A stretch of DNA of 37,299 bases from Acidimicrobiia bacterium. GTDB lineage: Bacteria; Actinomycetota; Acidimicrobiia; IMCC26256; JAMXLJ01. Shown one piece after another: positions 3,764 to 30,515 of this stretch. The notes beneath the pieces are model-generated. The model had not been told where the DNA came from. It saw nothing but the letters and a program-made list of their open reading frames with translations, and made no database searches. Position 1 is the first letter of the stretch; the number at the start of each line of letters is the position of its first letter. The stretch is taken from the NCBI GenBank assembly GCA_035651955.1, contig DASRES010000012.1:1-37299 (forward strand). Reading direction: 5' to 3'. A program made the position numbers and the translations under genes.

Positions 3764-5177
3764 CGTCGTGTTCGACGGCTGGCAGTCGCGACCCGGGCCA
3801 CGCCACCAGCGGATCGCGAGCGCGGTGCTCGACGCGATCGAGCAGCGGACCGTCGCGCCGGGGGCGCGCGTCCCCGCCGAGCGACGCCTCGCGGAGTCGC
3901 TGGGCGTGAGCCGCGGGACGGTCGTCGTCGCGTTCGACCACCTCGTCGAGGCGGGTGTCGTCGTGCGCCGCCAGGGTGCGGGCACCTCGGTCGTGGGGCG
4001 GCCCCCGTGGACGCGACCGCACCCCGAGACGGGCGTTGCGTCGCTGTTGCTCCGCCGGCTCGCCGCCGACCGCGAGACGATCGACCTCTCGCTGTCGGTG
4101 CCGGCCGGTGCGGGCCACCTCCCGGCCGTGGACTGGCACGCCGGGTCGCGCGCACCCGAGGGTCACGGGCTCGACCCGCGTGGCGACCTCCGCCTCCGCC
4201 GGGCGATCGCCGACCATCTGACCTGTCGGCAACGCCTCCCGACCGGGCCCGACGAGGTGCTCGTGACCGCGGGCGCGCAGCAGGCGCTCGCGCTGCTCGG
4301 GCGCGCGCTCGTGTCGCGCGCGACGACGGTCGTCGCCGGATGCCCGACCTATCCCGGGTTCGCGGCCGCGTTCCTGCCGGCGCAACACGACGTGCGCACG
4401 GTCCCCGTCGACGACGCCGGGACCGACCCGACCGCGATCGCGCGAGCGCTGCACGGCCGCGGTGACGCGGTCGTGTACGTGATGCCGACGGGACACAACC
4501 CGACCGGGTCCGTCATGCCGGCCGCGCGCCGCCGCGCCGTCGCCGAGATCGCCACGACCGCGAACGTGACGATCGTCGAGGACCTCGCGCTCGCCGACCT
4601 CGTCCTCGACGGCGACGACGTGCCCGAGCCGATCGCGGCGCGGTCGAGCAACGCCGTCGTGATCGGCTCCGTGTCCAAGCTGATGTGGGCCGGCGTGCGC
4701 ATCGGTTGGATCCGGGCCGATCCGCGACTGCTCGACGACGTCGCGCGCGTCAAGGTCGCGCACGACCTCGCGACGAGCGCGCCCGCGCAGGCCGTCGCAA
4801 CCGCGTTGCTCGACGCGATCGACGACGAGTGGCTCGCGGCGCACCGCCGGGCGCTGGCGGCGCGGCGCGACCACCTGCTCGTGCTCATCGCCGAGCAGAT
4901 CCCCGCGTGGCGGGCGCGCCGCCCGTCGGCGGGCCTGTCGTTGTGGGTCGAGATCCCCGTCGCGCGCGCGGACGCGTTCGCGCACGTCGCCGCGGCGCAA
5001 GGCGTCGTCGTCGCCGCCGGCAGCACCGCGTGCCTCGACGGACGCCACGTCGGCGCGATCCGGCTGTCGTTCGCCGAGCCGATCGAGACGCTGGAGCTCG
5101 CGGTCGAGCGGCTCGCGTCGGCGTGGGAGTCACACAGCGTCGACCTCGCGACGGCGCCGCGTGAAGCGGGGGCGTGA
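3735..5177 (+). CDS. MocR/PdxR-type transcriptional regulator (GntR winged helix + aminotransferase fold)
   Basis: The 480-residue protein has a GntR-type winged helix at residues about 20-90 (VPAERRLAESLGVSRGTVVVAF, VVRRQGAGTSVV). It is fused to a fold-type I PLP aminotransferase domain containing YVMPTGHNPTG and SVSKLMWAGVRIGW, where K315 is the expected Schiff-base lysine. This is the standard MocR layout and usual length. Such proteins sense a PLP adduct or amino compound rather than act as transaminases. I start at the GTG at 3735, just ahead of the family's conserved start (DLVWWTRVVFDGW); the open frame continues upstream only as antisense. It is divergent from the SCO6745/SnoaL pair, its likely target along with itself. 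Confidence 0.9.
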   Translation: MDQDLVWWTRVVFDGWQSRPGPRHQRIASAVLDAIEQRTVAPGARVPAERRLAESLGVSRGTVVVAFDHLVEAGVVVRRQGAGTSVVGRPPWTRPHPETGVASLLLRRLAADRETIDLSLSVPAGAGHLPAVDWHAGSRAPEGHGLDPRGDLRLRRAIADHLTCRQRLPTGPDEVLVTAGAQQALALLGRALVSRATTVVAGCPTYPGFAAAFLPAQHDVRTVPVDDAGTDPTAIARALHGRGDAVVYVMPTGHNPTGSVMPAARRRAVAEIATTANVTIVEDLALADLVLDGDDVPEPIAARSSNAVVIGSVSKLMWAGVRIGWIRADPRLLDDVARVKVAHDLATSAPAQAVATALLDAIDDEWLAAHRRALAARRDHLLVLIAEQIPAWRARRPSAGLSLWVEIPVARADAFAHVAAAQGVVVAAGSTACLDGRHVGAIRLSFAEPIETLELAVERLASAWESHSVDLATAPREAGA

Positions 5178-19298: not shown

Positions 19299-19739
19299 AT
19301 GGCGTCCGTGAACCACGTCGGCCTGACGGTCGGCGACCTCGACGCGTCGCTGGCCTTCTACACCGAGGTCGTCGGCATGACGGTCGTGGTGCCGAGGTAC
19401 CGCAGCGGCGGCGCGTGGTTCGACACCCTCACCGGCAACCACGGCGCGGCGATCGACGTCGCGATGCTGCAGTCGGGATCCCTCGTGCTCCAGCTCGTGC
19501 AGTATCACGAGGGCGGTGATCCCGTCGCGTTCACGGGCCACGCACGGGTCGGCAACGTCCACCTCTCGATCGACGTCGACGACGTCGAGAAGAAGCGCGC
19601 CGCGATCGCGAGGACGCACGACCCGACGCCGATCGTCGGCCTGCCCTTCCCGGGCGCGCGAAGCTTCTACGTGCACGATCCCGACGGCGTCCCGGTCGAG
19701 TTCCTGCAGCTTCCCGACGACGCGCACCTGCCGCGCTGA
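19299..19739 (+). CDS. VOC-superfamily protein
   Basis: This 146-residue glyoxalase-fold protein starts [24 protein letters not shown] and ends [18 protein letters not shown]. His in NHVGL, His in VHLSIDV and Glu in VEFLQL are plausible metal ligands. It is close in layout to the VOC gene at 10279 but not a recent duplicate. The reaction is unknown. It stands alone, divergent from the HAD gene with only 28 bp between the two starts, and convergent with a pseudogene. Confidence 0.85.
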
Positions 19740-19743
19740 CACG

Positions 19744-20200
19744 TCAACGCCGCGGGACGAGCGTCGCGGTCTCGACGATCGTCTCTTCGTGGCGCTGGAG
19801 CGGGTCGTGGAGCTGGTCGAGCCGCCGCAGGAGGATCCCCTCGCGCAGCGCCCACGGGCAGATCTCGACGCGGTCGACGTCGAGCGGGCGCATACCTCTG
19901 CGCGAGGCGGCGGCTGCGCCGAACACGTCCGGCCCGTTGCGGGCGTCGCGGATCGCCGCGGTCGCGAACCCCGATCAGCTCGGCGACGTTCTCACGGTCG
20001 GAGACCCGGACGGCCCGGCGCACGACGTCGACGAGGCGCTCCACCCCGGCCTGGTCGATCACCCCGTCGTCGGTCTCGCGCTCCGCGAGCCTGACGGTGT
20101 CCTTGAAGACGGACGTCTCGAGCGGTGGTGCACCGGCGCGACCGTCCGCGATCTGGAGCTTGACCGAGTTCGAGCCGACGTCGAGGACACCGAGCCTCAC
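19744..20200 (-). pseudogene. Degraded Ppx/GppA phosphatase (frameshift plus large internal deletion)
   Basis: The N-terminal 77 codons from GTG 20200 give LGVLDVGSNSVKLQIADG and later NVAELIG, the start of an exopolyphosphatase/GppA protein. Then one extra base in a run of four C (19969-19972; G on the coding strand) shifts the frame. In the next frame the text continues FATAAIRDARNGPDVF, exactly the next conserved Ppx/GppA block. It then jumps to MRPLDVDRVEICPWALREG and ILLRRLD, the family's C-terminal block, ending at 19744. The actin-like middle (roughly 150 residues, including the phosphate loop DIGGGS) is missing. A full protein is about 300 residues. The extra base might be a sequencing error; the deletion would still leave it non-functional. 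Confidence 0.85.
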
Positions 20201-21132: not shown

Positions 21133-23580
21133 GTGGCAACGGACACGACGCGCAGCGTGACGGTCGGAGCGGGTCCAGTGCCCGATGCACACGCACCATC
21201 GCCCGGCCGAGTTCGGCAATGGCGCGCGCGGAGCTTCGGTCCGGCGTCGGAGCGGCCGTACCGGCGACGGACGAGCGACTGGCTCCGCCTGGCGGTCGCA
21301 ACGGCCGTGCTTGTGGTCGCGTCACTTCACGCGGGCGCCGTGACGCGGACCGAGCGGAGCATCTTCCAGACGTTCAACACGCTGCCGTCGGGAGCAAAGT
21401 CGCTCTTCCGGTTGCTGTACGGGCTTGGCGCGCTGTGGGCGGTCGGGCTCGTGGTACTGGCCGCGCTGGCCGGCCGGCGGTGGCGACTCGCCCGCGACAT
21501 GGCGGTCGCCGGGGTCCTGGCGTGGGTCGTCGCGCGGCTCATGGGCGCGCTCGTCGCCGACAGCGCGTCGCTCGCATCCTCGTATCACGCGGTCGTACGC
21601 CTCGGGCACGACACCCCTCGGTTCCCTGTCCCGCGACTCGCGCTCGTCACGAGCGTCGTGTGCGTCGCATCGCCGTATGTCGCGCGGCCTACGAGGCGGA
21701 TCGGCACGCTCCTCGTCGTCGCCCTCGTGTTCGCCGCGATGTACCTGGGCACCGGGTATCCGAACGACGTCCTCGCAGCGATCGTGCTCGGATGGGGCGT
21801 CGCGGCCGCGGTGCATCTCGTGTTCCGCTCGCCGGGCGGGCGACCGACCACGGAACAGGTCGCGGCCGCGCTCGAGGAGCTCGGCGTGGCGGCGGTCGAC
21901 GTGCGGCTCGCGCCTGTCCAGCCGAGGGGCGCGACGCTCATGAACGCCTCGGGCGACGGAGGGCCGCTGTCGTTGCGGATCCTCGGGCGCGACGAGGCCG
22001 ACGCGCAGCTGCTCGTCAAGCTCTGGCGCTTCGTTGTCTACAAGGACTCGGGGCCCGACGTGTTCCTCGGTCGACGGCACGCGGTCGAGCACGAGGCGTA
22101 CACGATGCTGCTGGCGGAACGGGCCGGCGTGCGCGTTCCAGGCGTCGTCGCCGCCGGCACCGCGGGCCCCGGCGCGGCGGTGCTGGTCGTCCGTACGCCG
22201 GTGGGGCGCCGCCTCTGCGAGCTCGAGCCGGCCTCGGTCACCGACGCGACGCTGCACGCCGTGTGGTCACAGGCGGGTGCGCTCGCGCACGCGGGCATCG
22301 CGCACGGTCGCTTGAGCACCGCCGCAGTGCTCCTCGCAGACGGCGGCCCCGTCCTCACGGACTTCCACGTCGCCCGCGCGACCAGCACGAGCGAGCAGCG
22401 TGGCACCGACCTCGTCGAGCTTCTCGTCTCGACCGCGTCGCTCGTAGGCGAGGAGCGAGCCGTCGAAGCCGCCGTGCACGGGATGGGGAAGCAGTGTGTC
22501 TCGGCCGCGCTGCCCATGATGCAGCCGGCCGTGCTCACGCGGGCCACGCGCCACAGCTTCAAGCGCAGGGAGCTGAGCCGGCGGATGAAGCGACTCCGCG
22601 AGCTGAGCGCGGCCGCGACCGGCGCGCATGTACCGACGCTCGAGGAGGTGCATCGCGTCAGCGGCGCCAATCTCGCAATGGCGATCGGGACGTTGGTCGC
22701 GCTCGTCGCGCTGATGAGTCAGGTCGGCAGCCCGCAGAAGATGTGGGACACGATCCGCAACGCGAACTGGTGGCTCGCGCTGCTCGCGCTCGCCTTGTCG
22801 CTCGCGACGAACTTCGCGTACGCGATCGCCCTGCTCGGTACGGTTCCGATCCGCTTGCCGCTGCTCGCGACGACCGAGACCGAGCTCGCGATGTCGTTCT
22901 CGAACCTGGCGATCCCGGGAATCGGCGGCGTCGCGCTCCAGATCCGGTACCTGCAGAAGCAGGGTGTCCCGCTCGCCTCCGCGGTCGCCGCCGGTGGTTT
23001 CCTGAGCGGCTTCGTCAACACGATCGAGCAGCTCGTGCTGTTCGTCATCGCGCTGGTGCTGTCGCCGGCCTCGGTGCAGCTCGGCGACATCCCCACGAGC
23101 TCCGTCGTCGACGTCGTTCTCGTCGTCGTGCTCCTAGCCGGCGTGGCGGCCGGCCTGCTGTTCGGCATCCCGCGGATCCGTCGTCGCGTGTTGCCCCCCG
23201 TCGGGGAGGCGCTGCACACGCTCGGCTCCGCCATGCGGTCCCCGCGGCGACTCGGGCTGCTGTTCGTCGGCAACGTCCTCGCCACGTTGCTCTACGCGTT
23301 CGTGTTGATCGCGTGCATCGCCGCGTTCGGCGGTCACGTGTCGTTCTGGACGGTGCTCGTCCTCAACATCGGGATCGGCACCATCGCCGCGATGGTCCCC
23401 GTGCCCGGTGGCAACACTGCGGTTGGCGCGATCGGGATGACGGGCGCGCTCACGACAGTGGGAGTCGGCACCGAGATCGCGGTCGCGGCCGTCCTGCTCG
23501 ACCAGATCGTCGTGACCTACATCCCCGCGGTCATGGGCTGGTTCGCGACGCGCCACCTGATGGAGCAGGACTACATCTGA
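21133..23580 (+). CDS. PAP2-like / pseudokinase / LPG-synthase-TM flippase fusion protein
   Basis: From GTG 21133 (GGGGA five bases upstream) the protein has 815 residues in three parts. Residues 50-232 are hydrophobic and PAP2-like, but the usual catalytic motifs are lost: the SGH position reads PVPRL (166-169) and the last motif reads MYLGTGYPND (203-212), with Gly in place of the catalytic His. Residues 280-440 look like a kinase fold: LLVKLWRF (K296) and VEHEAYTMLL (E320) fit, but the catalytic HGDL reads HGRL (391-394) and DFG reads DFH (410-412), so activity is doubtful. Residues 510-810 are a multi-pass flippase-like domain of the MprF/AglD type (LAIPGIGGVALQIRYLQKQG, VPVPGGNTAVGAIGMTGAL). 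It probably moves or senses a lipid at the inner membrane. The degenerate domains may be a family trait. Confidence 0.8.
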   Translation: MATDTTRSVTVGAGPVPDAHAPSPGRVRQWRARSFGPASERPYRRRTSDWLRLAVATAVLVVASLHAGAVTRTERSIFQTFNTLPSGAKSLFRLLYGLGALWAVGLVVLAALAGRRWRLARDMAVAGVLAWVVARLMGALVADSASLASSYHAVVRLGHDTPRFPVPRLALVTSVVCVASPYVARPTRRIGTLLVVALVFAAMYLGTGYPNDVLAAIVLGWGVAAAVHLVFRSPGGRPTTEQVAAALEELGVAAVDVRLAPVQPRGATLMNASGDGGPLSLRILGRDEADAQLLVKLWRFVVYKDSGPDVFLGRRHAVEHEAYTMLLAERAGVRVPGVVAAGTAGPGAAVLVVRTPVGRRLCELEPASVTDATLHAVWSQAGALAHAGIAHGRLSTAAVLLADGGPVLTDFHVARATSTSEQRGTDLVELLVSTASLVGEERAVEAAVHGMGKQCVSAALPMMQPAVLTRATRHSFKRRELSRRMKRLRELSAAATGAHVPTLEEVHRVSGANLAMAIGTLVALVALMSQVGSPQKMWDTIRNANWWLALLALALSLATNFAYAIALLGTVPIRLPLLATTETELAMSFSNLAIPGIGGVALQIRYLQKQGVPLASAVAAGGFLSGFVNTIEQLVLFVIALVLSPASVQLGDIPTSSVVDVVLVVVLLAGVAAGLLFGIPRIRRRVLPPVGEALHTLGSAMRSPRRLGLLFVGNVLATLLYAFVLIACIAAFGGHVSFWTVLVLNIGIGTIAAMVPVPGGNTAVGAIGMTGALTTVGVGTEIAVAAVLLDQIVVTYIPAVMGWFATRHLMEQDYI

Positions 23581-24273: not shown

Positions 24274-26793
24274 TCACAGGAGTCCTCGTGCTCGCGCGCG
24301 CTCGACCGCCTGCTCGCGTGACGCGACGCCCAGCTTGCGGTAGATGGACCGCAGGTGCGTCTTGAGCGTGTTCGACGAGATGAACAGCTCCCTTGCGATC
24401 CCGGAGTTGCTCGCGGGTGTGCCGAGCTGCCGCAGCACGGCGAGCTCGCGCTCACTCAGCGCATCATGGGCCGGCGCATCGCCGGCCCGCGCGGGCACGG
24501 GCGCGTCCTCCTCCGCGAACACGAGGGCGAACCCCTCGGGCTGCGCGAGCGTCGCCGCCGACGTCCGGTGCCGTTCGGCTGCCACCGCGTTGGACGAGGC
24601 ACGTGCGAGCAGCAGCTGCCGCACGATGCGATCGCGGACGGTCGAGACACGCAGCTCCCCGAGACGAGCACGCGCCACGGACGGTCGTCGCTCGAGATCG
24701 AGGCGGATCTCGAGGAACGTCCGCTCCACACCGAGCGGTAGCTGGGCCGTCAGGGCGCTGGCGCGCGAGAGGTCGCCACGCCGGATGCACACGAGCGCTT
24801 CGAGTGCATCCACCCGACCCGGCAGCACGTCACCACCGGATCGCAGGGCCCGGTGTCGCGCTCGCGCCACGCCGGCCGTCGCTCCGACGACGTCATCTCG
24901 GGCGAGCGCGAGCCGCGCGAGCGAGAGCGCTCCGAGCGTCGCGTGGACGATGGAGTCGAAGTCGTCGGCCAACGGTTCGAGCTCGGCCAGGTCGGCCTGA
25001 GCGGCGCCGGGCTGGTCGCGTTCGATGAACACAGTCGCGCGAGCCAGGAGGGCGTCGAGCGCGCCGAAATCAGGGGTGCCCGGTCGTGCGCGCCTGAGGG
25101 CGAGCGTTGCGAGCGCCAAACCTTCGCCCAGCTTTCCCTCCGCGACGGCAATCGTCGCTTGCACCGCCGGTACAACGACGAGCGCGAGAGGCGCGGAGAT
25201 CCTTGAACCCGAAGCGAGGGGTTCGACCAGCGCCCGGGCCGCGGTGACGTCGCCGAGAAGGAGATGGGCTCGCGCCATGATGACGGGAAGCCGTTCGAAC
25301 GCCGGATCTGTCGTTGCGGCGTCGCCGACGGGCCCGAGCTCGGCCACCTTGTCGAGCGCGCGACGAGCATCGCCCCGCAACGCGTAGAGCTGTCCGCGCA
25401 GCGCGACGAGCCGCTGGGCGAATCCCGGCGGCAGGTCGGAGCGAGAACGGCTCGCCTCCTCGGCGCGGGTCAGCCACACCTCGCCCTCGACATAGCTCTG
25501 GCGCAACCCGAGCGCCAGCGCGAACCGCGCCATGCGTTCCGGGTCACCGGCGACATCGTCGAGCGGAACGAGACCGAGCCAGTCCTGGTGCCGGCGGCTC
25601 AACCCCGCGCGGGGCGTCGAACGCACCGCGAGCTCGAACGCCTCGTCGTTCTCGCCCGCCGCGAGCAGGTGGCCGACAGCCAGCCGGATGTCACCGGCTG
25701 CCGCGAACCATCGCGCCGCGACGGCGTGGAGCCGCCGAAGACGCGGCTCGTCACGGACAGCGAGCTCGTCGAGGAGCGCCTCGCGGAACAGGTGGTGATA
25801 GCGGAACCACTCGCGACGGTTGTCGAGCGCGACGACGAACAATCGCCGATCCTCGAGCGTCCGCAGCGTCGCCGTCGCGCCGTGACGACCCGTGAGAGCA
25901 TCGGCGAGCTCGGCATTCAGGATCTCGACGACGGACGTCGCGTAGAGGAAGTCGCGAAGCTCGCCTGGCTCGCGCCTGACGACCTCGTGGATGAGGAACC
26001 GGGCGGCTCGCGCGACGCCGACCTCGACGGCGAGCGCGGGGTCCGCGCCTGACCGCCGCTGGAGCGACAGCGCGGCGAGCTGCAGGCCCATCGGCCATCC
26101 CTCGGTCTGCGCGGTCAGCGCCGCAACCGTCTCGTCGGTCGGCGCGATCCCGTCGAAGGTCGTGAGGAACGCCGCCGCCTCCTCTGCGCTGAACGCGAGA
26201 TCCCGCTCGGAGACCTCGCGCGTGAGGCCGCGCGCGCGCCAACGCGCGGTCGGCAAGCGTGGCCGCTCGCGACCGGCGAGGACGACCGAGAGCTGCGGCG
26301 GCGCGTGCTCGACGAGATAAGCGAGACGTTCGAGAACGTGCGCGTCATCGAGGACGTGAACGTCGTCGATGACGAGCGTCACGTCGATGTCCAGCCGCGC
26401 GAGGTCGTTGACCAGCGCGCCCACGAAGCCATCGGTGCCCCCTTCGGACTCGAACAGTGTCCGCGCCGCGCCCGATGCGACGGTCGGCGCCACCGTGCTC
26501 GTCGCGTACAGGACCTGCGACCAGAACCGGGTCGGTTCGTCGTCGCTGCGATCGAGCGTGAGCCAGGCGACGCGCGAGCGGGTCCTCGTGACCCGGTCGT
26601 GGACTGCGGACGTCTTGCCCCATCCCGCGTTCGCGACGACAAGCGTCACGCACCGCCCCGGTGGCGCCAGCAGTGGGTCGAGGCGCGGGCGTGCGACGAC
26701 CCGATCGCGAGGTGGAGGGACGGCGACCTTGCTCGCGACGACCGGCGGACGCAGTACGGGTCCGGGATGCTCGTCGCGCCCGGTGTCGTTCAC
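24274..26793 (-). CDS. Large LuxR-family regulator (MalT-like STAND ATPase), channel-linked
   Basis: From GTG 26793 (GGAGG nine bases upstream) the protein has 839 residues. The N-terminal NTPase carries a Walker A motif ANAGWGKTS (54-62) and Walker B VTLVIDDVHVLDD. A middle winged-helix/arm region (TEGWPMGLQLAALSLQ, WFRYHHLFREALL) is standard for MalT-type proteins, followed by a long TPR-like helical sensor. The last 65 residues are a LuxR helix-turn-helix (LSERELAVLRQLG, IARELFISSNTLKTHLRSIYRKLG). Such proteins assemble on a ligand and activate transcription. Its start overlaps the stop of the ion-channel gene (GTGA), so the two are co-translated. It is paralogous to the gene at 27894. Confidence 0.9.
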   Translation of the reverse strand: MNDTGRDEHPGPVLRPPVVASKVAVPPPRDRVVARPRLDPLLAPPGRCVTLVVANAGWGKTSAVHDRVTRTRSRVAWLTLDRSDDEPTRFWSQVLYATSTVAPTVASGAARTLFESEGGTDGFVGALVNDLARLDIDVTLVIDDVHVLDDAHVLERLAYLVEHAPPQLSVVLAGRERPRLPTARWRARGLTREVSERDLAFSAEEAAAFLTTFDGIAPTDETVAALTAQTEGWPMGLQLAALSLQRRSGADPALAVEVGVARAARFLIHEVVRREPGELRDFLYATSVVEILNAELADALTGRHGATATLRTLEDRRLFVVALDNRREWFRYHHLFREALLDELAVRDEPRLRRLHAVAARWFAAAGDIRLAVGHLLAAGENDEAFELAVRSTPRAGLSRRHQDWLGLVPLDDVAGDPERMARFALALGLRQSYVEGEVWLTRAEEASRSRSDLPPGFAQRLVALRGQLYALRGDARRALDKVAELGPVGDAATTDPAFERLPVIMARAHLLLGDVTAARALVEPLASGSRISAPLALVVVPAVQATIAVAEGKLGEGLALATLALRRARPGTPDFGALDALLARATVFIERDQPGAAQADLAELEPLADDFDSIVHATLGALSLARLALARDDVVGATAGVARARHRALRSGGDVLPGRVDALEALVCIRRGDLSRASALTAQLPLGVERTFLEIRLDLERRPSVARARLGELRVSTVRDRIVRQLLLARASSNAVAAERHRTSAATLAQPEGFALVFAEEDAPVPARAGDAPAHDALSERELAVLRQLGTPASNSGIARELFISSNTLKTHLRSIYRKLGVASREQAVERARARGLL

Positions 26794-27551
26794 GTCACCT
26801 GCCCTCCGTCGTGACCGGCCCGCTCGTCGTCCATCGCTCCGGGTGGGTTGCGTCGTCGCCGGCTCATCGCGCCGACGAGCAACGCGACGACCGTGACCAG
26901 ATAGATCTGGCCGAGCAACGCCTCGAGGACGGCCGCCGCCCGTCCGAACCCGCCAGCCGCCGTCAGATCGCCGTACCCGACCGTGGTGAGCGTGACGAAG
27001 CTGAAGTAGAGGTAATCGGAGATCGTCGCGTGCGCCTGCTGCGCGAAGAACGGGTGTGCGCCGAACGCGCCGATCGCGCCGTACCCGAACGCGAACGTCA
27101 TGCCTGCGAGCACGTAGACGCACAGCGCGCCGAGCACCGTCCTCACGTCGATCACCGGACGCGCCGCGACGCCGCGCACGATCACCACCGGTGCCACGAG
27201 GACGAGGACGAGGCTCACCAGATAGAAGGAGCCGCGCACGGCGCCACCGTCTTCGTTGGGCGCGATGACGATCGCGGCGAGCGTGCACAACGTGACGACC
27301 GCACCGGTGAGGCGGATCGTCGAGCGCCTCACGCGCGATGCGGCCATCGCGACGACGAGGGTGAGCCCCTGAAGCGAAACGGTTACGACGCGGGTCCACG
27401 CGTCGGTCGGTGACGCCACCTCGATCACGTACGTCACCACGAGGAGGAGCAGCACGATCCCGTAGCGATAACCCTGCCGTCGCTCCTCGCCTCGCGCCTC
27501 ACGCGACGCGTCCGGGCGCGCGCGCGAGCTGGCAGCGGTTACACCTGTCAT
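26790..27551 (-). CDS. Potassium-channel-like membrane protein (Ion_trans_2)
   Basis: The 253-residue protein has about six membrane segments: four N-terminal (for example GIVLLLLVVTYVIEVA and FYLVSLVLVLVAPVVIV), then a pore helix with the selectivity filter FVTLTTVGYGDLT flanked by VLGALCVYVLAGMTFAFGY and IYLVTVVALLVGAM. TVGYGD is the K+-selective signature. There is no S4-like arginine ladder and no cytosolic ligand domain, so gating is unknown. ATG 27551 begins the unit, with a regulon palindrome 88 bp upstream. Coupling of a channel to a giant LuxR regulator suggests the regulator reads ion or membrane state; this is inference. Confidence 0.88.
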   Translation of the reverse strand: MTGVTAASSRARPDASREARGEERRQGYRYGIVLLLLVVTYVIEVASPTDAWTRVVTVSLQGLTLVVAMAASRVRRSTIRLTGAVVTLCTLAAIVIAPNEDGGAVRGSFYLVSLVLVLVAPVVIVRGVAARPVIDVRTVLGALCVYVLAGMTFAFGYGAIGAFGAHPFFAQQAHATISDYLYFSFVTLTTVGYGDLTAAGGFGRAAAVLEALLGQIYLVTVVALLVGAMSRRRRNPPGAMDDERAGHDGGQVT

Positions 27552-27656: not shown

Positions 27657-27744
27657 ACCCCGACCAAGGGCCGCGCGGTGCGACGAGGTCGAGTGCGCCC
27701 GCCTTCACCGCCCGACGGTCTTCGACGACGGCCGGAGTGGCCCG

Positions 27745-27773
27745 TTGCCACACCACGACGATGCCGCTACCTT
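27745..27773 (+). promoter_or_regulatory. Candidate housekeeping promoter of the second LuxR gene
   Basis: TTGCCA (27745-27750) and TACCTT (27768-27773) with exactly 17 bp between them fit a sigma-70-type promoter. A transcript from about 27780 would have a leader of roughly 114 bases. Confidence 0.45.
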
Positions 27774-27893
27774 TCGCACGACACGGCCGCGCCCGTCGCA
27801 CGCCACGTCCACGAGGGCCCCGACCGCAGGAACTCATCGTGCGCTCCGGACCCTGGCGCACCACAGCAGCGTGGTCGTCGCGGGAGGAGCGCG

Positions 27894-30515
27894 ATGCACC
27901 CGACACGCAGCGTGGGCGACCCCGTGGAACGCGAGGGTGACGGGCATCGCAGAACCGGCCCGCACGCAGTCCTCGACGACTCGAGGCCCGCACCCGTCTC
28001 GACGAGGCTCGCGCCACCCCCGGGTCCCGAGCGGATCGTGGTCCGTCCGCGGGTCACCAAGTGCTTCTCGGGCGCGCTCGACGCCCGGTTGACGCTCGTC
28101 ACCGGCGCGCCCGGCATCGGCAAGACGGCAGCGGTGCGCGAATGGATCGAAGATATCGACGCTCGTGTTGCCTGGCTGACTGCCGGCACCGAGGACAACG
28201 ACCTACGCGACTTCCAGCGCGATGTCGCGGGTAGCGTCCAGCGCGTTGCTCCCGAGGTGCCCGCGCGCTTCGACGCCGTCTCCGAGATCGACTCCCCGCT
28301 GGTTCTCGTCATCGACGACTTCCAGGCCATCACGAGCACAGACGTCGTCGGCGCACTGCGTTTCCTGCTCGAGCACAAGACCCCTTCACTGCACGTCGTC
28401 GTCGCGAGCAGGTCCGACCCGCCGTTACCGCTGGCACGATGGCGCGCTCGCGGCGAGCTCCACGAGGTGCGCGAGGCGCAACTCCGCTTCCGACCCGACG
28501 AGGCGCGTGCGTACCTCGCGATGTTCGACGACCTCGCGATCGACGACGACGCGATCGCGACGCTCGTACAGCGGACCGAGGGATGGATCGCAGGATTGCA
28601 GCTCGCGGTGATCTCGCTGCGCACGAGCGACGACCCCGCGACGTTCATCGACCGCTTCGGCGGCACCGACCGCTTCATCGCCGACTTCCTCCTCGACGAC
28701 GTGCTCGAGCACCAGCCCGATGACATTCGCGACCTGCTGCTCGACATGTCCGTGCTGGACGAGTTCGACACCCGGCTGTGCGCGGCGCTGACCGGCCGCC
28801 ACGACGTCGAGCATCAGCTGCGCCGGGTCGAGGCCGCGAACCTCTTTCTCGTCAGGGTCGACGACGCGGGGACGACGATGCGCTACCACGCGCTCTTCCG
28901 CGACTTGTTGCGGTCCGAGCTCGACAGCCGATCACCACAACGTGCGCGGGACCTCCGCCGACGCGCCGCTGCGCTCGTCGCCCACCGGGGAGACCGTGTC
29001 GCGGCCATCGCGTTGCTCGTCGACGCGGGTGACGACGACGCGGCGTTCGAGCTGGCGATGCCACACGACGTCGAATTGGATCTCGACGCACGGGCCGAGA
29101 CCCGTGCCGGGCTGAACCTGCTGCGCGAGTCGTTCGTCGCGGCCGATCGCGATCGTGTCGTGCGGTTCGCCGACGCGCTCCTCAAGGCCGGCCGCATCGA
29201 GGAGGCGGCGGGCTGGTTGACCCGGGTCGGCGCCGCGTCGCGCAGCGGCGACGACGAGCCCGCGGTGTCCGCCCGGCTGGACGCCGTGTGGAGCAGGCTG
29301 TACGCCGCGAGCGGTGAGGCGGATCTCGTCATCCGGCGGGCCGGCCGCGCGCTCATGACCGTGTCGCGCGACCGCTTGCCTCACGAGACCATGCTGCGCG
29401 GGCTCGAGGTCGACCTGGCCCGCGCGTGGTTGCTCGAGCGGAACACGCGGCAGGCGGAGCGGCGCCTTCGTCTGCTCGACGACCGGGCACTCGATCCGCT
29501 CATGAGCGAGGTCGCGGTCCCCTCGCTTCGAGCCCGGATCGCGGCGGCCGAAGGCCGCCTCCGCGACGCCGACACAACCGCACGCCGCGCGCTCCGGTTC
29601 GCGACGACACTCGGCGCCACCCGTCACCCCGCTGCGCTCGATGCCCTCCTCGCCGTCGGACAGGTCCGCTACGAGCGCAACGACATCGCCGACGCGAAGC
29701 GAGCGGTCGAAGCGACGACCGATCTTGCATCCGAGCTGTCGGCGCAGCCCTACCTCGCGCTGGCCCGTCTCGCGGAAATCCGGCTCGTGGGAGCCGAGCA
29801 CGGTGCCGCCGCGGCGCTGCACCACCTCACCGCCGTGTCCGGCTCGTTCAGTTCCGTGCTCCCCCGTTGCATCACGGATGCCATCGCTCTGATCGAGGCA
29901 CACCTGTCGCTCGTCGCGGGCGACGCGGAGCGCGCGGCACGCCTCGTCGCGACGGTGCCGGCCTCGTTCGAGCGGGTCCTGCTCGCCGCGGAGATCGACA
30001 TCGCGAACGGCGAGAGCAAGGCCGCACGCCGGCGACTCGACGCACTCGAGCCGCTCACGCTCGTCCAGTCGGTCCGGGTGGAGCTCCTTCACGCCGCAGC
30101 GACGGACGACGCCGTCGAGCAGCGCCGACACGTCGCGACGGCCGCGACGCTGGCGGCGCCGGACCTCCTGCGCCGGAGGTTCGTGCAGAGCCATCCGAGC
30201 GTCGTGCGCGCGGCGCGCGCACTGGCCACGTCGGCGGACGCCGACCCTCTCACGCGCCAGTTCCTGGAGTCGGTCACGGGCCTGCCGGTCGTCACGCCGG
30301 CAGGCGCACTCGTGGACTCCCTGACCGAGCGCGAACGCTCGGTGCTGCGGTACCTGTCGACGACGCTCGACTACCGCGACATCGCGAGCGAGCTCTTCAT
30401 CTCGGCGAACACGCTGAAGACGCACGTGGCGAGCATCCACCGGAAGCTCGGCGCGTCGTCACGCGCGCAGGCCGTCCGCCAGGCCGAGCAGCTCGGCCTC
30501 CTCCACCACCACTGA
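27894..30515 (+). CDS. Large LuxR-family regulator (MalT-like STAND ATPase), stand-alone paralogue
   Basis: The 873-residue protein starts at ATG 27894 after a strong GGGAGGAG ribosome site. Walker A is GAPGIGKT (71-78) and Walker B VLVIDDFQAI. The arm region TEGWIAGLQLAVISLR and MRYHALFRDLLRSEL parallels the gene at 24274. A TPR-like helical middle follows, and the C-terminus is a LuxR helix-turn-helix (LTERERSVLRYLS, IASELFISANTLKTHVASIHRKLG). The two regulators share layout and near-identical recognition helices (ELFIS-S/A-NTLKTH), so they may bind related DNA. It is divergent from the channel/LuxR operon and appears monocistronic. The ligand is unknown. Confidence 0.9.
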   Translation: MHPTRSVGDPVEREGDGHRRTGPHAVLDDSRPAPVSTRLAPPPGPERIVVRPRVTKCFSGALDARLTLVTGAPGIGKTAAVREWIEDIDARVAWLTAGTEDNDLRDFQRDVAGSVQRVAPEVPARFDAVSEIDSPLVLVIDDFQAITSTDVVGALRFLLEHKTPSLHVVVASRSDPPLPLARWRARGELHEVREAQLRFRPDEARAYLAMFDDLAIDDDAIATLVQRTEGWIAGLQLAVISLRTSDDPATFIDRFGGTDRFIADFLLDDVLEHQPDDIRDLLLDMSVLDEFDTRLCAALTGRHDVEHQLRRVEAANLFLVRVDDAGTTMRYHALFRDLLRSELDSRSPQRARDLRRRAAALVAHRGDRVAAIALLVDAGDDDAAFELAMPHDVELDLDARAETRAGLNLLRESFVAADRDRVVRFADALLKAGRIEEAAGWLTRVGAASRSGDDEPAVSARLDAVWSRLYAASGEADLVIRRAGRALMTVSRDRLPHETMLRGLEVDLARAWLLERNTRQAERRLRLLDDRALDPLMSEVAVPSLRARIAAAEGRLRDADTTARRALRFATTLGATRHPAALDALLAVGQVRYERNDIADAKRAVEATTDLASELSAQPYLALARLAEIRLVGAEHGAAAALHHLTAVSGSFSSVLPRCITDAIALIEAHLSLVAGDAERAARLVATVPASFERVLLAAEIDIANGESKAARRRLDALEPLTLVQSVRVELLHAAATDDAVEQRRHVATAATLAAPDLLRRRFVQSHPSVVRAARALATSADADPLTRQFLESVTGLPVVTPAGALVDSLTERERSVLRYLSTTLDYRDIASELFISANTLKTHVASIHRKLGASSRAQAVRQAEQLGLLHHH

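Follow-up and report, generated by a model that had tools for sequence, protein, structure and literature searches.

The window analysed here, a stretch of 37,299 nucleotides from an Acidimicrobiia bacterium, carries on its forward strand, at positions 21133-23580, a gene for an 815-residue protein in which a PAP2-like domain is followed by a kinase-like domain and an MprF-type flippase-like domain, an assignment made with the help of 85 near full-length homologues. In line with the initial annotation, which had placed a three-part membrane protein with PAP2, kinase and flippase folds at precisely these coordinates, an 815-codon frame opens with GTG at 21133 and reaches its stop at 23580, and comparisons by profile or model indicate that all three domains are homologous to the families proposed. 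The start itself is provisional, since alignment with the homologues begins only near residue 24 and the structural model has a pLDDT below 50 over residues 1-24; the frame is open from 20698, which leaves options for an upstream start. The model, calculated with 42 related sequences as input, has a mean pLDDT of 83.8 and a pTM of 0.66. Its Foldseek and VIA matches were taken up by the kinase part, and a viral fold library likewise returned mostly general kinases; the PAP2 and flippase assignments therefore rest on sequence profiles, and that of the flippase also on the model of a relative.

Family profiles detected PAP2, kinase or flippase domains nowhere else within the 37-kb window. The neighbours of the gene encode a DUF308 protein, a LuxR-type regulator and an ion-channel protein, and because they are shared mainly with a relative of the same genus, they offer no functional hint. 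Two large frames for LuxR/MalT-type regulators (24277-27399 on the reverse and 27678-30515 on the forward strand) lie divergently around the ion-channel gene (26793-27551), and this block is partly shared with the same-genus relative. On the reverse strand at 19670-20200 there is also a short frame that has no Pfam match and may be truncated or frame-shifted; its start (LDVGSNSVKLQ) presumably resembles that of a Ppx/GppA-type phosphatase.

Relatives of the three-part protein and the arrangement of its domains

Homologues of the 815-residue protein were collected by searching overlapping sets of 61, 148 and 246 genomes, and the 85 that were near full-length, most of them from draft assemblies, were aligned; a search of genome contigs matched only a closely related MAG. 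In a quick LG+G4 tree the protein falls within a clade of 17 sequences (SH-aLRT 100), hereafter the window clade, which in the present sampling is limited to Acidimicrobiia, spans several families of that class and consists almost entirely of full-length frames.

The wider family forms a graded series. All three PAP2 motifs are present in 6 of the 85 homologues, five of which also possess all four scored kinase residues, and a further 10 of the 85 combine an intact kinase with no PAP2 motif at all; in the remaining homologues each domain is missing one or more of the scored residues. Four of the latter (L032, L015, L042 and L043) combine one or two retained PAP2 motifs with a largely dead kinase. 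One of these, L032 (3659-6226), is a paralogue from the same genome as the window, on contig C16, with two of three PAP2 motifs and a dead kinase, the reverse of the kinase-alive group.

The three domains also occur in other arrangements. At locus L108 (2888-5719, reverse strand) a single frame encodes a permuted flippase-PAP2-kinase fusion with intact PAP2 motifs, and at L140 and L142 the three domains are encoded by separate neighbouring genes. That the domains have been re-assorted yet stay together suggests a common task. The same is indicated by stand-alone PAP2 genes with PAP2 motifs, which adjoin 6 of the 13 loci where a dead fused PAP2 domain accompanies a living or near-living kinase and none of the 29 loci in the other groups (Fisher p 3e-4, with groups made by hand post hoc, kinship uncorrected, flanks of differing length and no KX6RP match in the L047 gene). 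These genes lie at 4191-4898 and 5770-6657 in L049, 4746-5450 in L100, 3693-4520 in L057, 6091-7445 in L131, 2581-4158 in L047 and 3147-3818 in L048.

The PAP2-like and kinase-like domains

The PAP2-like domain (residues 42-236; 21256-21840, forward strand) comprises six long helices in the model. The Pfam PAP2 profile (PF01569) matches it below threshold, at residues 171-231 (E 0.011; 16 bits with a cut-off of 27.2), and the profile of the window clade aligns by hhalign with that of intact PAP2 members across the entire domain with an E-value of 4.4e-37. Judged by these profiles, this part is a true PAP2 homologue across its six helices. None of the three PAP2 catalytic motifs (KX6RP, PSGH, SRX5HX3D) is complete. 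The alignment leaves G138, A145 and S146 at motif 1 (21544-21570), FPVPR at motif 2 (residues 164-168; 21622-21636), where V166, P167 and R168 occupy the SGH positions, and A202, G208 and D212 at motif 3 (21736-21768), where the Arg and His have become A202 and G208 and the Asp is kept as D212. The losses of SGH and of the final His that had been reported for this domain are thus borne out, and KX6RP is missing as well. The position of the catalytic His of PSGH is taken by Arg168, and by Arg in 16 of the 17 clade members.

The kinase-like domain (residues 239-500; 21847-22632, forward strand) has a Bud32/PRPK/RIO/WaaP-like fold, as indicated by profiles, by an NCBIfam Bud32-type kinase match (residues 303-428, E 8e-10) and by fold matches of the middle part of the model over about 200 residues to PRPK (Z 16.8), Bud32 (Z 16.7) and WaaP (Z 15.2), as well as to RIO. 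Only the DFG Asp remains of the four catalytic residues scored (Lys, HRD Asp, Asn and DFG Asp). In the family alignment the beta-3 (VAIK) lysine, which lies in the family motif LFVKVxGRD, corresponds to R282 (21976-21978); HGRL replaces HRDL at residues 391-394 (22303-22314), which puts R393 at the HRD Asp position; the Asn position holds A398; and DFG reads D410-F411-H412 (22360-22368). Both motif substitutions had been recognised in the initial annotation, as HGRL for HGDL and DFH for DFG. The residues that it took to be retained fared less well: K296 sits on a model helix (286-302) beyond the strand (277-284) that bears R282, and is not the ATP-binding lysine; residue 320, given as Glu, is His, the conserved acids being E319 and E321; and D410 is indeed Asp in this protein but is kept in just 6 of the 17 clade members, the other 11 having Gly. 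Across the clade 4 of 17 sequences have the beta-3 Lys, and no sequence has either the HRD Asp or the metal-binding Asn. Poorly conserved as they are, the nucleotide-binding residues speak against the nucleotide sensor that had been suggested for this domain.

Some kinases function without the usual residues, and H391 (invariant in the clade), D426 and the acids at 319 and 321 are strongly conserved here, as might be expected if the domains, like some atypical kinases, had moved their catalytic residues elsewhere and stayed active. At the motif positions themselves, however, the clade has no catalytic residue fixed, and we regard this explanation as very improbable.

A decaying gene would also have lost its motifs, and the constraint on the kinase-like part is lower than that on the flippase. 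In comparison with the same-genus homologue, dN/dS is 0.31 for the PAP2-like, 0.33 for the kinase-like and 0.19 for the flippase domain (Nei-Gojobori; rough values, as synonymous divergence is about 1). The kinase-like domain has the highest ratio of the three parts in all four window-clade pairs, which points to weaker constraint on it, and the flippase domain has the lowest in three of the four; mean pairwise identity within the clade is 0.52 for the C-terminal domain compared with 0.49 and 0.46 for the other two. The PAP2 and kinase losses are nevertheless common to 17 sequences from several families, which have clade-specific residues in common, are nearly all full-length and show dN/dS well below 1, so that simple decay was rejected and a gene on its way to loss seems highly unlikely. 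The alignment of homologues called for at the outset thus shows that the losses are not private to this copy. Homologues with intact motifs, which had been named as a sign of mere decay, do exist among distant members (5 of 85 with both enzymes, and the 10 with the kinase alone), whereas the alterations extend throughout the close clade, on which purifying selection acts.

The flippase domain and its replaced Glu-Arg pair

The C-terminal domain (22684-23538, forward strand) was delimited by Pfam and profile alignments. Pfam LPG_synthase_TM (PF03706), the MprF-type flippase family, matches residues 518-802 with an E-value of 1.1e-19 and 71.5 bits, well above the curated cut-off of 33.4, and the protein therefore stays an LPG_synthase_TM homologue, though an atypical one. 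No Pfam match to the C-terminal aminoacyl-PG synthase domain of MprF was found, and the flippase domain is the last in the protein.

Counting by hand from the profile alignment, we equated the Glu of the PGGxGxxE motif with E295 of Pseudomonas aeruginosa MprF (PaMprF), and the Arg 24 residues further on with R319. In the alignment with PaMprF and in that of the family, these positions are occupied here by G765 (23425-23427) and Q791 (23503-23505). The pair is Glu/Arg in all 66 other relatives that cover the site, and throughout the window clade (17/17) it is replaced by Ser or Gly at the Glu site and Gln at the Arg site, with a one-residue insertion two positions past the Glu site. A single change on the quick LG+G4 tree accounts for the clade-wide loss of the Glu. 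Among further PF03706 sequences from outside the clade, some of them family members, the Glu is kept in 62 of 63, the Arg position being more variable in distant ones, and all three PF03706 paralogues from the same genome with a readable motif retain both residues.

The flippase loops had been described as conserved, a claim that fails at these two positions, which are invariant elsewhere in the family, and an ordinary flippase is not supported. This bears on the model put forward in the initial annotation, in which lipid and nucleotide sensors gate such a flippase. The folds of the sensor domains are kept, and Arg168 at the PAP2 His position could hold a phosphate; with ATP and metal residues poorly conserved and the flippase core atypical, however, the model as a whole appears improbable.

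The salt bridge formed by E295 and R319 is conserved in PaMprF (PMC11980842) and, by the account of the PaMprF paper, also in RtMprF. Its role as a lipid gate is disputed: as presented in the same paper, the Rhizobium tropici structure speaks for it and the P. aeruginosa work against it. In vitro lipid scrambling persists in PaMprF E295Q, R319A and R319E, and becomes faster in E295R (PMC11980842). In Staphylococcus aureus MprF, Ala at conserved flippase positions including E206 abolishes flippase function in vivo (PMC6299216), and the loss of the pair could thus equally mean a dead transporter.

A putative lipid scramblase without enzymes, and its known counterparts

We read the 815-residue protein as an MprF-type lipid scramblase or a lipid-binding scaffold that would have no enzyme activity. 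Our preferred reading, which we hold tentatively, is that it is conserved, has no enzymatic role and derives from an actinobacterial protein of three parts that handles lipids, and that it may move or hold lipid through a C-terminal domain devoid of the usual salt bridge. The intact relatives join in one chain a PAP2 phosphatase, which would face outward, a Bud32/WaaP-like kinase, which would be cytosolic, and an MprF-type scramblase; known PAP2 proteins and the charged loops suggest that the PAP2 pocket lies outside and the kinase inside. Such a protein could act on one lipid at both faces of the membrane, with the lipid being phosphorylated, or a carrier processed, on one face, then moved and dephosphorylated on the other. 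In the window clade, both enzymes have lost their catalytic residues, the domains are kept under purifying selection by the rough dN/dS values, and in the alignment the Glu-Arg salt bridge of the scramblase core has given way to Gly/Ser-Gln. The C-terminal domain most likely still moves or holds a membrane lipid, and the PAP2-like and kinase-like parts would have a binding or scaffolding role. More specifically, and with greater reserve, this may be a clade of MprF-type transporters in which both sides of the salt bridge were exchanged after the two fused enzymes had been lost, leaving a lipid scramblase that lacks the salt bridge and is maintained by selection.

Alternatively, all three parts could be inactive as enzyme or transporter, the protein being a lipid-binding receptor or an assembly scaffold. 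Hallmark residues are gone from each of the three domains, and the near-universal Glu in the other LPG_synthase_TM sequences fits this possibility. Yet within the clade conservation is strongest in the C-terminal domain, by identity and, in three of four pairs, by dN/dS, and PaMprF scrambles lipids in vitro even with changes at this pair, which makes a wholly inactive protein less likely. If the clade protein scrambles lipids, the proposed salt-bridge gate would not be needed in nature. A natural clade with both salt-bridge residues exchanged, and the new state present in all 17 members, bears on the disputed MprF gate and offers a natural test of how MprF-like lipid transporters work, while a single architecture that grades from two intact enzymes to none lends itself to the question of what role enzymes play when fused to a lipid transporter.

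The component families are already known, and the three-part combination appears to be without a published description in the open-access literature, in which we found no paper on a PAP2, kinase and flippase architecture; this is weak evidence, as subscription journals were mostly outside the scope of that search. The family profile matches the PAP2 lipid phosphatase LpxE (PDB 6ebu) over residues 73-223 (E 3.3e-7), and in contrast to such phosphatases the window clade lacks all three catalytic motifs. With Bud32/PRPK and WaaP-type kinases the middle domain has its fold in common; unlike them, the clade lacks the HRD Asp and the Asn and mostly also the beta-3 Lys and the DFG Asp, and in the 815-residue protein the kinase-like domain sits between two membrane domains. 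Related records from Nocardia, Mycolicibacterium and Streptomyces carry the name 'lysylphosphatidylglycerol synthase transmembrane domain-containing protein', which, where annotation is given, covers the C-terminal part only; the aligned family members outside the window clade keep the Glu-Arg pair, these records being compared by annotation only. Homology to the flippase domain of P. aeruginosa MprF (PDB 9goe and 9j8q) extends across 293 positions of the profile (E 5e-4), and Foldseek pairs the model built for an intact family member with 9j8q (E 1.7e-4). Compared with P. aeruginosa MprF, the 815-residue protein has PAP2-like and kinase-like domains and no matched aminoacyl-transferase domain, and it presents Gly-Gln where MprF has Glu-Arg.
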